Positions 2,129 to 37,512 of a DNA stretch of 64,000 bases are shown one piece after another. The translations under genes were made by a program, and so were the position numbers. Source of the stretch: an uncultured Candidatus Melainabacteria bacterium (GTDB lineage Bacteria; Cyanobacteriota; Vampirovibrionia; Gastranaerophilales; Gastranaerophilaceae); assembly GCA_950096985.1 (NCBI GenBank), contig CATNBA010000007.1, positions 1 through 64,000 of the forward strand. The letters are read 5' to 3'. The stretch's first letter is position 1. Every line of letters begins with the position of its first letter. The notes under the pieces are model-generated. The model saw only the letters and a program-made list of their open reading frames with translations. It searched no databases and was not told the origin of the DNA.

Positions 2129-2665
2129 ATGCAATATAATTTATCATGTGAACAAGTTACAGCATTGCTTACATTTTATGTTGAGGATAAACTAAGTGCT
2201 AAATTATCAAACTATGTAAAAGAACATCTAGATAAATGCCCGGAATGCCGCGAAAAATTTTATCAATTACAAAGTATACTGCAACGCTTTAATGAAATTC
2301 AAAATGAAGAAATTGAAAATCCTTATGTAACAAAGCAATATGAAGATTTTAAATCAAACCTATCTGCATATGTAGATAATGAATTAGATGATTTGGAAAA
2401 TATTAAGATAAAAAAAATAGCTATTTCAAACCCTCTGGCAAGACAAGATTTAGAAAATATTTATACATTTAAAAAACTTCTTCATTCTTCGTTTGAAAAA
2501 ACAAAAAATGAGTTAAAAACAGATTATTCAAAATCTATTGTCTGCCAATTACAGAATGAATGCTCTGATGAAAAAAAATTAGACCCGTTTATCAAAATTA
2601 CTGCAATATTTTTTGCAATGATAACTTGCATTGTAGCAGGGATAATATCTATTTTATACTTTTAA
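2129..2665 (+). CDS. Membrane-anchored zinc-finger anti-sigma factor
   Basis: Directly downstream of ECF sigma; N-terminal HLDKCPEC zf-HC2/ZAS-like motif; C-terminal TM segment. Confidence 0.8.
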   Translation: MQYNLSCEQVTALLTFYVEDKLSAKLSNYVKEHLDKCPECREKFYQLQSILQRFNEIQNEEIENPYVTKQYEDFKSNLSAYVDNELDDLENIKIKKIAISNPLARQDLENIYTFKKLLHSSFEKTKNELKTDYSKSIVCQLQNECSDEKKLDPFIKITAIFFAMITCIVAGIISILYF

Positions 2666-3265
2666 TGAAGATGAAGATGAATATTTAATTGAAGATAATT
2701 TTTGGTATTGGCTCATTGAAATGCCGCGTGGAGCTGCCAATTCATAATTATTATGCATATTCGCAAGAGCTTGTTTTTGTTTTTTTGATGCATATTGGTT
2801 ACGCAAAATAGGTGTTACGATATTACATGAAATAATTGATCCGATTGTACTTGCGACAACATCTACACCGTTTTTAAACGGCTTATAACTATCAGGCACA
2901 TTATTAAGATTTCCAATGTTAAAATCAAGTTTGCCGATTTTTTTTACATCATCTTTTGAAAGAGCATTTTTAATACCTTTTGTTGTTAACTTTCCGGTTG
3001 AAACTAATTTTGATGCAATGTTTTTAAATGAACTTGTAATAAGATAAAAAGAGGCTATATTAATTCCTGCATCAGCAATTTCCTGAGGAATAAGAAAGCT
3101 CTTTTGTTCTGGTGAAATTTTATCATTGAATACTACCGCACTAACTTGTGCCAATGATGATAAAATCCAACCTAAAACGCCAGTATGCACAAGCATTTTA
3201 CCAGGATTTTCTCCGTAATTTTTATATAATGATGATTTAAAACCGGAAAATAAATTACTCATCAC
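2654..3265 (-). CDS. Hypothetical membrane protein
   Basis: Complete ORF, hydrophobic segments; overlaps 3262..3834 start by 4 nt (operon). Confidence 0.7.
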   Translation of the reverse strand: MMSNLFSGFKSSLYKNYGENPGKMLVHTGVLGWILSSLAQVSAVVFNDKISPEQKSFLIPQEIADAGINIASFYLITSSFKNIASKLVSTGKLTTKGIKNALSKDDVKKIGKLDFNIGNLNNVPDSYKPFKNGVDVVASTIGSIISCNIVTPILRNQYASKKQKQALANMHNNYELAAPRGISMSQYQKLSSIKYSSSSSLKV

Positions 3266-3834
3266 TTATTCTCCTGTTTTTTTATCAAAGTATTTGTCAA
3301 AAATTTCGTCAACGGTGCATCTATTAAGAAATTTGTAAACATCATAACCACTAGTGCGACAATTGTACCCATAGCGTTACGATACTGCATAAAGGCATCT
3401 GTATTGGTTTTTGTGATATTTTTTGGTGTAAACAATGATTTCCATTTAGGTACATTAGCTCCTCGAGGCTGCGACATGGCTTTAATGCCTTTAATACAGG
3501 CTTTACGAATTATAAAACCTGTTGCTGTACCTGCAACAATTTTTGCTATAGTTCTTGCAACAGAAACTTTTCGTGTTTTTTCATCAACTTTTTTATTATT
3601 GGCATCAATAAATGGCTGGGTCATTAAAGCTGATGCTCCTAAAATAAGGCGTTGTTCAGCAGATGAAATTTTTTCACCTGCTTTATTAATCCAATTTATA
3701 TTCCCTGATAATTCCAGATTAGGAACAGCACTAAGTGCACGCTGTTTTACTGAATTGCAAGCGCTTTTTATTCCACCCTGAAACTGCGGGGAAGATGTTT
3801 TTATTTTCATGTTAGACGCCATATTTCTACCCAA
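3262..3834 (-). CDS. Hypothetical membrane protein with N-terminal MKIKTSSPQFQGG motif
   Basis: Complete ORF; start probably at MASNMKIK; hydrophobic helices. Confidence 0.7.
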   Translation of the reverse strand: MGRNMASNMKIKTSSPQFQGGIKSACNSVKQRALSAVPNLELSGNINWINKAGEKISSAEQRLILGASALMTQPFIDANNKKVDEKTRKVSVARTIAKIVAGTATGFIIRKACIKGIKAMSQPRGANVPKWKSLFTPKNITKTNTDAFMQYRNAMGTIVALVVMMFTNFLIDAPLTKFLTNTLIKKQENK

Positions 3835-14234: not shown

Positions 14235-15812
14235 TTACATGTTTTTGCTTAAATATGCAAGGTTATCTGCATTAAGCATAGTATCGAATGATGTCTTTGG
14301 CTGTTGAATTTCTTTTTCTGCAAGTTTTGCTTTTCGTTTAGCTTCAGATTTATTTGTCATATAAATATTTAATTTTGGCACACCTACACCAAGAACAAGA
14401 CCTGAATATAAGTATCCTGCAAGCTGAGCAATATTTAAAGCTCTTAATTTGCCTTTTGTAGATTTATCTGCCAGTTTAATAAGTTCTTTAAACGGAAGTT
14501 CTTTACCATTTTTAACAGTTTCAATACCTTTTTTCTTTAATTCAGAATATAAAACTTCGTCACGAGTTTTTAAAGATGAATTTGTAAGCCATTTAAAGAA
14601 GTTTTTAGAGCTTTCTTTACCAACATTTATCAAGGACTTGTCAAATGCTCTTGCAACACCTTTAGTAACAAGTGCACCTAAAACAAGCAAATTCATAAAC
14701 CCAAGGGTATCTTTAACCATTGATTCTCTAAATTCATCTTTGTCACGCGCAGAAAGTATTCTAGAAGCAATTGTAAGCCCGTAAACAAATTTCAGTTGCG
14801 AAACAGTAGGTGTCATCCCTTTAAATTGCAATTTAGTCAAAAGCTTTTTAGGATTTGGAGTAATAGTAGATAATGCTGCTAATGAAAAAGCTGAAGCACC
14901 TGCCAGTTTAAGCATTTTAAAACCTGCTGACTTATCCTTTTCACGTCCTGCAACACCGACGAAACCGTCACTGCCGGTTTTCTTTTTAGTTAAATACATA
15001 TTAACAGGCTGAGTTAGCATACCAATCGTAGTCGCAACCCCAAGTCCTATTACAGAACGGCTCAAATTCATGTGTTTCATAGATTTTAAGAAATCAGCAG
15101 AGGAAACACCTTTTGCCTCTTTGGCAATAACCGCTTTTGTAATATTATAAATATTTTCAATACCACTTGTAAGTGTAAATGTATTTCTGCTTCCTTTAAA
15201 TCTGAATTCACTTTGCGAACCGGTAGCATTAGTAATAATTGCTTTTGAATAACTCATCAATTCTTTATTAATAAGTTCAGGTGTCTGCTTACTTATCATT
15301 GCAGAATTAAATTTGCCGACAAGTTTATTAACATCTTGTTCGGGAATTTCTCGCCATTGACCGTCAACTTGTGTTTCAAGCTGTGAAAACATATTTCTTA
15401 AATGCTGCTGATAGTCAGGGCCTTTATGAGTGTCAAATGATTTTGTAATCTTTTCAAATGTTGCATTATCTGCAAATATTTTATGAGCTTTAATTCCAAA
15501 ACGGTTATTAAGAGCTGAAGCCAAGAAAGCTCCCGCAATTGAACCATATACACCAACCATAGAATGGTTAAATGTACCCATAGATTCGCGGCGTGCAGTT
15601 TCAGTACCCGCCTCTGGGCCTCGGTTTATGAAATCTACTGTAGTTCTTGGAATTACCATTGAACATAAATCTACGGCATTTGCTCCCCAAGCTTGATTGG
15701 TATCAAGAAATCTCAAAAAAGCACTTCCCATTTCAAAAGCACCTGTGAAATTTTGATTAATATTGTTTTTATTATTTTGATTATATTGGGGTATATTCGG
15801 CTGTATTTTCAT
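14235..15812 (-). CDS. Hypothetical multi-helix protein, paralog of downstream-numbered neighbour
   Basis: 525 aa; N-term MKIQPNIPQ...NQNFTG; shares DLCSMVIPRT, RRES, QFKGMTPT...ASR, DKDEFRES with 15827..17422. Confidence 0.8.
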   Translation of the reverse strand: MKIQPNIPQYNQNNKNNINQNFTGAFEMGSAFLRFLDTNQAWGANAVDLCSMVIPRTTVDFINRGPEAGTETARRESMGTFNHSMVGVYGSIAGAFLASALNNRFGIKAHKIFADNATFEKITKSFDTHKGPDYQQHLRNMFSQLETQVDGQWREIPEQDVNKLVGKFNSAMISKQTPELINKELMSYSKAIITNATGSQSEFRFKGSRNTFTLTSGIENIYNITKAVIAKEAKGVSSADFLKSMKHMNLSRSVIGLGVATTIGMLTQPVNMYLTKKKTGSDGFVGVAGREKDKSAGFKMLKLAGASAFSLAALSTITPNPKKLLTKLQFKGMTPTVSQLKFVYGLTIASRILSARDKDEFRESMVKDTLGFMNLLVLGALVTKGVARAFDKSLINVGKESSKNFFKWLTNSSLKTRDEVLYSELKKKGIETVKNGKELPFKELIKLADKSTKGKLRALNIAQLAGYLYSGLVLGVGVPKLNIYMTNKSEAKRKAKLAEKEIQQPKTSFDTMLNADNLAYLSKNM

Positions 15813-15826
15813 TAATAATTATCTCC

Positions 15827-17422
15827 TTACGAATGGGTAAATGCGCTAAATGCTGTTTTATCTTTCAGTATAGATTTCGAAAAATCTTGAGTGGAAACGT
15901 CCGTCGACTGAGTATTTGCATTCATTTTCGCAAGTTCTTCCGCATGTTTTTTGTTTGTTTTTGCTCTTGTGTAGAGAGGTATGAATACCCCCAAAGCAAG
16001 TAGAGAGAATACAATGTTGCCAATTTGGCAAATAGTTCTCAATTTTTTATCTTTAGCTGTAACGAGTTCATCTGATGATTTAATAGAAGTATGTTTTGCC
16101 CAGTGCCAGAATTTTTCTAAAATATTGGCATTTTCTTTAGGTTTTTGCAAAGTATTAATCAAATGAACATCTTTATTTTTTTTCTCTAAAAATGTAGCTA
16201 TGCCTTTTGCAACGTAATCACCAAGGAAATAGAAACTTGCAAAAGTTGCAATATCACGAACTGTAGCCTCACGTAATTCGTTTTTATCTTCAGCAGCTCC
16301 CATCCGGCTTGCAAAGGTTGCTGTTGAAATAATTCTTGCCTGATCCATTGTTGGGAACAATCCTTTGAATTGAAACATTTTCAAAGATGGCTTATCCATG
16401 AACATTGATAATCCGGCAACACCTACCATAGAACCGACAGAAATAAATTTCTGTGCAAGAAGTTCCCTTTTTTCTTTAGGTGTAAGCTCTTTATGTTCAG
16501 TTTCTTTACCGAAATCTTTATAAATAGGAGCACCTTTTTGTCCTGATGTTTTACGAGTAATCCATCGGTTTATAGGCTGCATTGATATAGCCAAAGGAAT
16601 AATAATGCCAAGCCCGCCAACACTTTTCCAGTTAACAAGTTTTTTAGCTTTTTTAAAGTACTGAGCAAGTTGATTTTGGTCTGTAATATTTTCTTTTATA
16701 ACACCTCTAAGCATTTTTACAGTATCATCACATACCGATTCCAAGTTGTTAGCAAAGAAACCTTTGTCATTTTTAAATTTAATATTTTCAGCAATATGAG
16801 TTTCGTTTATCAATGTCTCATAAGCACTTTTAACAGCTTTTCTATCAAATTTTTCTGAAACTACAGCTTCAGTCAAAGTTTGAACAGCCTTTTCAAATCT
16901 TGGATTATTTTTGAAAATTTCTGCAAAATCTTTAGTTTCAGAACCATCAACACCCGAAATGCTGTTTAGCATATTTCTGAATGTATTAGATACTCTTTCT
17001 TTAGGAGTTGCTCCATTAGCACTACCATAGAAATGGTGAATTTTATCGATAGAATCCCCGTTCGCCCAAGTGTTAACAAGACTTGACTTATTAAATGAAC
17101 CCATCACAGGACGTTGTAAAAACTTAGCAAGACCCATTACAATAAAACTCGGTATTAAACAGTTTACAATCAATCCTGAAGATTCGCGTCTAAAAGCCTC
17201 AAAACCGGCATGTCCGTTTGATTCTTTTGTTTCAATAATAGTACGCGGAACAATTGCTGTAGACAAATCCAACGCAGATACATTTACCATTGGATATTTT
17301 TCACACAATTGAACAGCAGAAATTATACCTTCGCCCAAACCTGTAAAATTCGGATTTTGAGGATAGTTATCCCTCTGCGGGGTATATTGCTTTTTATTTA
17401 CTACACTGATTTTATCAATCAT
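15827..17422 (-). CDS. Hypothetical multi-helix protein, paralog of 14235..15812
   Basis: LDLSTAIVPRT, RRES, QFKGLFPT...ASR, DKNELREA; N-term MIDKISV...NPNFTG; start assigned at the second Met. Confidence 0.8.
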   Translation of the reverse strand: MIDKISVVNKKQYTPQRDNYPQNPNFTGLGEGIISAVQLCEKYPMVNVSALDLSTAIVPRTIIETKESNGHAGFEAFRRESSGLIVNCLIPSFIVMGLAKFLQRPVMGSFNKSSLVNTWANGDSIDKIHHFYGSANGATPKERVSNTFRNMLNSISGVDGSETKDFAEIFKNNPRFEKAVQTLTEAVVSEKFDRKAVKSAYETLINETHIAENIKFKNDKGFFANNLESVCDDTVKMLRGVIKENITDQNQLAQYFKKAKKLVNWKSVGGLGIIIPLAISMQPINRWITRKTSGQKGAPIYKDFGKETEHKELTPKEKRELLAQKFISVGSMVGVAGLSMFMDKPSLKMFQFKGLFPTMDQARIISTATFASRMGAAEDKNELREATVRDIATFASFYFLGDYVAKGIATFLEKKNKDVHLINTLQKPKENANILEKFWHWAKHTSIKSSDELVTAKDKKLRTICQIGNIVFSLLALGVFIPLYTRAKTNKKHAEELAKMNANTQSTDVSTQDFSKSILKDKTAFSAFTHS

Positions 17423-36212: not shown

Positions 36213-37217
36213 ATGCAATATAATGATTTGATGAAAAAATGTATTACACTGGCTAGACAAGGAGAAGGATTTGTTTCTCCCAATCCGCTTGTCGGATGTG
36301 TTGTTTTGGATAGAAACGGAAATGAAATTTCTACAGGCTACCATTCAAAATACGGAGAAAACCATGCAGAACGTGATGCACTGCTAAAACTTACAAACGG
36401 AGAAGAAAAAGGCGGAACATTAATAGTAAATCTTGAACCTTGTTCTCACTACGGTAAGACCCCGCCTTGTACAGATATAATAATAGAACGCGGGATAAAA
36501 CGTGTTGTTATAGGAATGCGCGACTGTAACCCCAAAGTAAATGGAGTTCAAAAGCTCAAAGATGCAGGGATTGAGGTTATAGAAGGAGTTCTTGACAAAG
36601 AATGCAAGCAACTTAACGAGATTTTTATCAAAAATATTACAAAGAATTTACCATTTATTGCAATAAAAACCGCAGCAACTCTTGATGGTAAAATAGCTAC
36701 ATCAAGCGGATCTTCCAAATGGATTACATCAGAAAAAGCCCGTGCTGAAGTCAAAAAAATAAGAAACCGCTATGATGCGATAATGACAACATCTTCAACA
36801 ATTCTTGCTGACAATCCATCTATGGAGCATCGCAAAAAAATAATTCTTGACAGAGAATTAATAACTGACAGAACCACGAAAATTTACCAATCAGGAGAAA
36901 TTCATATATTTAGCAAAAACAATACACCTGTTATAGATAATAAACTTGATTTAACATTTATATTTAATAAAGCCTATGAAGAAGGTATAAAAAGTATACT
37001 TATAGAAAGCGGCGGGCACTTAAACGGTTCAGCTTTGAAATATGCTGATAAAATCTACCATTTTATTGCACCAAAAATTACAGGCGACAACAACTCCCGT
37101 TCCTGCTTTGATTTTAGACATATTGACAATATCAACGACAGCTTAAAATTTAGATTTGATAGTATTCAAACCTTTGACCCTGATATTTTAACGACATATT
37201 ATCCCGTTAAACAATAA
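36213..37217 (+). CDS. ribD: Riboflavin biosynthesis bifunctional deaminase/reductase
   Basis: ALARQGEGFVSPNPLVGCVV-like N-term (LARQGEGFVSPNPLVGCVV), HAERDAL, NLEPCSHYGKTPPCTD, KTAATLDGKIATSSGSSKWIT. Confidence 0.92.
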   Translation: MQYNDLMKKCITLARQGEGFVSPNPLVGCVVLDRNGNEISTGYHSKYGENHAERDALLKLTNGEEKGGTLIVNLEPCSHYGKTPPCTDIIIERGIKRVVIGMRDCNPKVNGVQKLKDAGIEVIEGVLDKECKQLNEIFIKNITKNLPFIAIKTAATLDGKIATSSGSSKWITSEKARAEVKKIRNRYDAIMTTSSTILADNPSMEHRKKIILDRELITDRTTKIYQSGEIHIFSKNNTPVIDNKLDLTFIFNKAYEEGIKSILIESGGHLNGSALKYADKIYHFIAPKITGDNNSRSCFDFRHIDNINDSLKFRFDSIQTFDPDILTTYYPVKQ

Positions 37218-37512
37218 TGTCAATTCTATTTGCATCAAAAGTATTACCTAGCTGAGCCTTCATATTATCGTTGTTCATACCACGATTAAAGCTATTCAAA
37301 ATCGCCATTGATGCGTTATCATTACAATTTTGTATTTTAAACTGGTTAAGCGATAAGGCGATTAAATCTTGTTTCTGTTCTTTTAACATTCCATAAATCA
37401 CATCCAATTTATCATCTTCAGTGAATGTGTAAAAACTATTTGGATACTTTTTACATATATCAAAAGATTTATTATTCCCAAATATTTGATTGTTAATTTT
37501 TTGAATTTTCAT
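37207..37512 (-). CDS. Small hypothetical protein with N-terminal MKIQKINNQIFG motif
   Basis: Complete 101-aa ORF; SD AAGGAG upstream; 11-nt convergent overlap with ribD. Confidence 0.65.
   Translation of the reverse strand: MKIQKINNQIFGNNKSFDICKKYPNSFYTFTEDDKLDVIYGMLKEQKQDLIALSLNQFKIQNCNDNASMAILNSFNRGMNNDNMKAQLGNTFDANRIDIIV

Follow-up and report, generated by a model that had tools for sequence, protein, structure and literature searches.

Early substrates of flagellar export in Salmonella carry a hydrophobic N-terminal signal and a motif at residues 36-40 (PMC8983047). In FlgD these correspond to residues 2-5 and to the gate recognition motif at residues 36-40, with about 19-24 residues required between the two (eLife 2022, PMC8983047). 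The N-terminus of Escherichia coli K-12 FliE, MSAIQGI...TISFAGQL, comes closest to the tag described here in layout and in its Phi-S-F-x-G-x-Phi core (ISFAGQL); unlike the tag carriers, FliE is a single structural rod and export protein with a folded part that bears no relation to the bodies behind the tag. One N-terminal element standing before many toxic or enzymatic bodies is also known from type VI secretion, where effector marker domains of the MIX/FIX type have this arrangement. These markers are longer domains, whereas the tag is a short disordered motif.

The tag is found in Gastranaerophilales, non-photosynthetic cyanobacterial relatives living in the gut, and has the consensus M-x-[IV]... 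linker ...Phi-[SN]-F-[TKSQNR]-G-x-Phi. It resembles the FlgD-type signal in its hydrophobic part at the extreme N-terminus, its flexible polar spacer and its short F-based motif, in the lack of a chaperone, and in the presence of an FlhA/FliPQR gate. It differs in that position +2 from the F is nearly fixed as G, position +4 is hydrophobic in under half of the tags, the spacer in many cases falls short of 19-24 residues, and the putative cargo includes enzymes, not rod or hook parts. A search of the literature on the tag motif or on type III secretion in Gastranaerophilales found nothing relevant.

The window, that is, the whole stretch of 64,000 nucleotides that was analysed (34% GC), lies on contig 7 of a 1.65 Mb Candidatus Gastranaerophilales genome; its tag-bearing ORFs are listed in Table 1 together with the candidate export genes of the same genome. 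The tag was surveyed in 2.06 Mb of stretches from four genomes representing three families of the order, with genes predicted by a simple caller and 52% of the window's genome covered, as stretches. Carrier bodies were clustered by BLAST after removal of the first 50 residues.

Table 1. Tag-bearing ORFs of the window and candidate export genes of its genome.
Feature	Position	Strand	Remarks
Flagged 101-aa ORF	37207..37512	(-)	F-G-x subtype of the tag family; orthologs L172-L182
Tag of the flagged ORF, MKIQKINNQIFGNN	37471..37512	(-)	Residues 1-14
525-aa helical protein	14235..15812	(-)	Family A1, subfamily 1; no Pfam/NCBIfam family
Tag MKIQ...NQNFTG	15741..15812	(-)	Residues 1-24; disordered; F22 invariant
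531-aa paralog	15827..17422	(-)	Family A1, subfamily 2; ATG start (mechanical ORF call begins at GTG, 17449)
Tag MIDKISVV...NPNFTG	17339..17422	(-)	Residues 1-28
186-aa ORF with MASNMKIKTSSPQFQGG	3262..3822	(-)	Weak member; start uncertain
202-aa neighbour ORF MSNLFSGF...	2654..3262	(-)	F-S-G without linker; doubtful member
Operon FliE-FliF-FliG-like-FliH-FlhA	L021:6632-12505		Window's genome
FliO, FliP, FliQ, FliR, FliM/N-like protein	L012:8646-12159		Window's genome

A preliminary description of the window had proposed a recurrent N-terminal signature ending in F-x-G on four ORFs. All four quoted N-termini are present in the sequence, and F-x-G itself is found in the ORFs at 14235, 15827 and 3262; the flagged ORF reads F-G-N instead. 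Orthologs of the latter were recovered solely from its own genus, in 14 of 58 genomes with its own counted. Most begin MKIQNINSVNFGK, the others similarly, and nearly all start M-K-[IV]-[QN]-x-I-N-x-x-x-F-[GA]; the flagged ORF therefore belongs to an F-G-x subtype, of which there is a second small family (MKVNNINKTSFGN). With 28% identity, the proteins at 14235 and 15827 form a paralogous pair, so the four cited examples amount to three families, and the different bodies ascribed to them do not extend to this pair. The ORF at 3262 is a weak example: no ribosome-binding site is detectable, and the tag is missing in its relatives (L199, L207).

The family of the paralogous pair, termed A1, shows how the tag behaves over evolutionary distance. 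A genome scan recovered 80 loci with 154 members, of which 78 and 72 in the two subfamilies are unique, and the records with the same gene pair come from Candidatus Gastranaerophilales and other gut MAGs. F.G is retained in 142 of the 150 unique members (72/78 and 70/72), and those departing from it have mainly F-G-x. The F lies anywhere from residue 16 to 42 in the 78-member set and from residue 20 to 53 in the 72-member set, behind a polar linker that is wholly changeable between members; the middle residue is never a large hydrophobic one, and a further F is rare within the leader. In a 36-row alignment (A2), M1, I/V3 and F22 are found in all 36 rows and G24 in 34, while the columns between them vary freely. 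Among A1 homologs from a different order, some (L123-L126) have F-Q-G or F-S-G behind entirely different linkers and others F-G-x or F-x-A.

In the AlphaFold model of the 14235 protein (mean pLDDT 80.5), residues 1-23 fall below a pLDDT of 50 and helix begins at residue 24. The tag thus sits in a disordered leader, outside any globular domain, and a role in secretion or binding, as the preliminary description had suggested, is compatible with this placement. When the A1 body was searched against solved structures and folds, no match reached significance (best E 0.066 and 0.081). The same protein contains a second, internal QFKG..PT motif at residues 329-336, in a loop between helices, which is invariant across the first A1-family alignment.

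Enrichment across the genome depends on how the motif is drawn. Simple regular-expression counts do not reveal it: in a naive count F.G is as frequent within the first 45 residues as in later segments, and a loose count of polar leaders in the window's genome gives 39 versus 35.4. When polar leaders are compared with shuffled ones, F.G ranks second of about 1,600 gapped dipeptides (37 vs 20.9, z = 4.0), and head and tail are associated (OR 4.8, p = 6e-8; with a stricter head, OR 6.2, p = 4.5e-6). A family-level test with a faulty early stop had placed F.G 81st of 305; the corrected test, which draws one random member per family, places it second of 367 (nominal p = 9e-4, with 11.5 against 4.1). 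For the tail in its refined form, Phi-[SNTQKA]-F-[TKSQNRE]-G, 24 occurrences in N-termini compare with 8.9 expected (2.7-fold, p = 2e-4), these p-values being optimistic because the refined motif came from the same genomes. In the outgroup orders of the class the refined tail is flat (2 vs 1.7). The earlier claim of a lineage-specific signature is supported.

The excess is confined to N-termini and is also particular to the residues involved. Swapping the F for Y, W, L, I or V leaves no clear excess, and among 16 residues placed at the G position G itself has the largest excess, S and L a weaker one and 13 of the 15 others nothing clear. In the full set of 95 N-terminal F.G cases, taken without hand selection, only positions -2 (0.37 vs 0.22) and +4 (0.44 vs 0.28) have an increased share of hydrophobic residues. 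We regard the tag motif as genuine and very likely to act in docking or as a signal, and its conservation among orthologs is a stronger argument than the enrichment p-values.

Curated carriers number 48, or 2.4% of called genes in the sampled stretches, corresponding to about 2% of proteins. Among them are GH13-like proteins, which bear the tag in three genomes behind unlike linkers, a GlgA-like glycosyltransferase with a hydrophobic C-terminal helix, an M16-type protein resembling YfmF and YfmH fused into one chain (L068:12343-15138), an AAA ATPase, a CheR-type methyltransferase, an HNH protein and an HExxH protein. Many others have no assigned family or are helical proteins, and a UshA-like phosphatase has a tag-like head only. 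With a disordered leader and unrelated bodies, the motif is not part of one homologous globular domain, and across these carriers the different bodies of the preliminary description are indeed found. Residue 3 is hydrophobic (V/L/I/M/F/W) in 60% of 35 mixed tags. The leaders are polar and lack the positive start and hydrophobic core of a Sec or Tat signal peptide, as had been noted for Sec; none of 49 carriers has a TM-like start, a count with some circularity, since the set had been selected for polar leaders. TM segments are not enriched among carriers (20% vs 31%). A number of carriers nevertheless contain TM-like segments or look cytosolic, which counts against export.

Several candidates were set aside. 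A glycogen-body tag, prompted by the glycosyltransferase and GH13 carriers, does not fit the other carriers; a glucose-6-phosphate isomerase (L018) that looked tagged has an untagged relative in another genome (G017); F-x-G in a Walker-A type DnaX (HAYLFTGPRG) and in a 5'-nucleotidase (NDFHG) is due to chance; and a search of the DNA for the combined head and tail pattern matched mainly out of frame. Two type IV pilin-like proteins (L040:5552-6235, L036:18963-19742) have F-G-G-G in the leader before a GFTLAE cleavage site, possibly by coincidence. A tagged 651-aa protein (L253:13513-15468) combines cysteine-rich CPCC/CAGC-type sites with a C-terminal HNH nuclease domain and is a possible effector against other bacteria.

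A type III export gate is encoded in the same genome as the tag. FlhA-type FHIPEP is present in 60 of 60 genomes of the order, while Flagellin_N is found in none of 38 genomes of the window's family (f1) and in 21 of 22 from the other families (f2-f7), so that in f1 core export genes occur without flagellin. Full-length FlhA is mostly present in two copies in f2-f7 and in one in f1. With FlhA, FliF, FliE, FliH, FliOPQR and a FliM/N-like protein in the window's genome, the candidate machine resembles a flagellum-derived, non-flagellar apparatus. It is unlike a flagellum in the lack of flagellin in f1 and in its FlhA, which falls below the NCBIfam cut-offs for flagellar and SctV-type FlhA alike; this f1-type, or second, FlhA is 75-77% identical across f1, f6 and f7 and 36-38% identical to flagellar FlhA. 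The FliE-to-FlhA operon is syntenic in L270 and likewise in L269 save for FliE, which was not recovered in that stretch. FlhB was not found within the sampled half of the window's genome, and, as a point against export, the FliE of the candidate system has no conserved F-x-G (SFSDTM in L270).

Further genes of this kind lie elsewhere in the sample. A FliI-type ATPase is found in relatives (L230), and in five stretches (L228, L230, L231, L234, L238) its gene is found upstream of the tagged A1 pair, two genes away; this linkage, limited to five related genomes, could be due to chance. A soluble 492-aa protein (L268:1156-2634) corresponds to the FlhA cytosolic domain without the membrane part, and partial FHIPEP matches of about 500 residues indicate such FlhA-C-like proteins in nearly all of the genomes of the order that were tested. 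Proteins starting MGMAASQAR[YF]LGLTARK... (L021:17902-19155, near the export operon, and L065:9803) may possibly be axial or filament-like substrates.

Three features that the preliminary description missed, namely the hydrophobic positions -2 and +4, the type III apparatus in the same genome and a low cysteine content, point to export. Pooled tagged proteins contain 0.48% cysteine against 1.32% in TM-free proteins, and none of 5000 length-matched resamplings is as low. After family reduction the per-protein mean is 0.67% against 1.32% in length-matched TM-free proteins (0/5000), uncurated sets defined by regular expression give 0.60 and 0.66%, and tagged proteins also fall below untagged proteins with polar leaders (p = 0.003). 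E. coli FlgB to FlgG have zero cysteine. The low content could also stem from other biases of lineage-specific proteins. The agreement with early substrates is partial: at least 24 residues precede the F in 15 of 35 tags and at least 19 in 23 of 35, some tags have 7 or fewer, and over half lack the spacing of at least 19-24 residues between signals. The Phi of the gate recognition motif F-x-x-x-Phi is present at +4 in 44% of N-terminal F.G cases against a background of 28%.

Type III export is the best-supported mechanism, held tentatively, and we infer, with the same reserve, both that the tag is read as a bipartite type III export signal and that its carriers leave the cytosol. Roughly 2% of proteins would be marked by the tag for a non-flagellar type III apparatus of flagellar descent, encoded in all Gastranaerophilales genomes tested. 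Docking of the F-x-G segment on the cytosolic side of the gate, with FlhB-C, FlhA-C or the free FlhA-C-like protein as partner, would be followed by entry of the head into the gate, as with flagellar rod and hook subunits. Somewhat more doubtful is the wider proposition that an undescribed non-flagellar type III system, retained in flagellin-less lineages, exports about 2% of the Gastranaerophilales proteome by a short tag with an F-x-G core, its cargo comprising nucleases, peptidases, glucan enzymes and paired helical proteins.

The main rival, which we consider somewhat unlikely, is intracellular sorting or anchoring, in which Phi-x-F-x-G is recognised by a scaffold, either cytosolic or in the membrane, that brings the tagged enzymes and the helical proteins together at one place, for instance a glucan-related body or a membrane domain. 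A docking motif naturally tolerates variable linker length, and F-x-G recurs internally or C-terminally in some tagged proteins (LSFTGKK; VAFTGG). The carriers that would suit such a scaffold, among them the GH13-like protein, the glycosyltransferase that ends in a hydrophobic helix and the long-helix products of conserved core genes, stand beside HNH, HExxH, CheR and nucleotidase bodies that make no pathway. Cytosolic enzymes would moreover not be expected to be cysteine-poor, and no scaffold was found.

A marker for another export route, whether a new system or a contractile injection system, would be akin to the marker domains of polymorphic effectors and would account for one N-terminal element ahead of diverse enzyme bodies; it is improbable, given conserved single-copy A1 genes that are unlike effectors and, for a type IV (VirB) machine, a VirB4 ATPase found in none of 60 genomes. 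Equally improbable, and largely refuted, is a by-product in which AT-rich start codons (Lys, Ile, Asn, Gln) account for the head, and chance or local homology for F-x-G: the naive counts, the paralogy of the window's clearest examples and the poor conservation of gene 3262 would agree with it, and against it stand the F and G kept in 142 of 150 members despite non-alignable linkers and an enrichment that is confined to F, strongest for G, accompanied by raised -2 and +4 positions, and missing in outgroups.

To our knowledge, a readable consensus is usually missing from type III signals. If the export reading is correct, a fixed short motif would allow the exported set of an uncultured gut lineage to be listed from sequence alone. 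Partial flagellar gene sets, previously interpreted as motility or incomplete flagella (PMC5877343), would likewise gain a purpose. Even if another machine is involved, a short linear motif that is conserved on many unrelated proteins in one bacterial order would represent an unexplained sorting or binding system.
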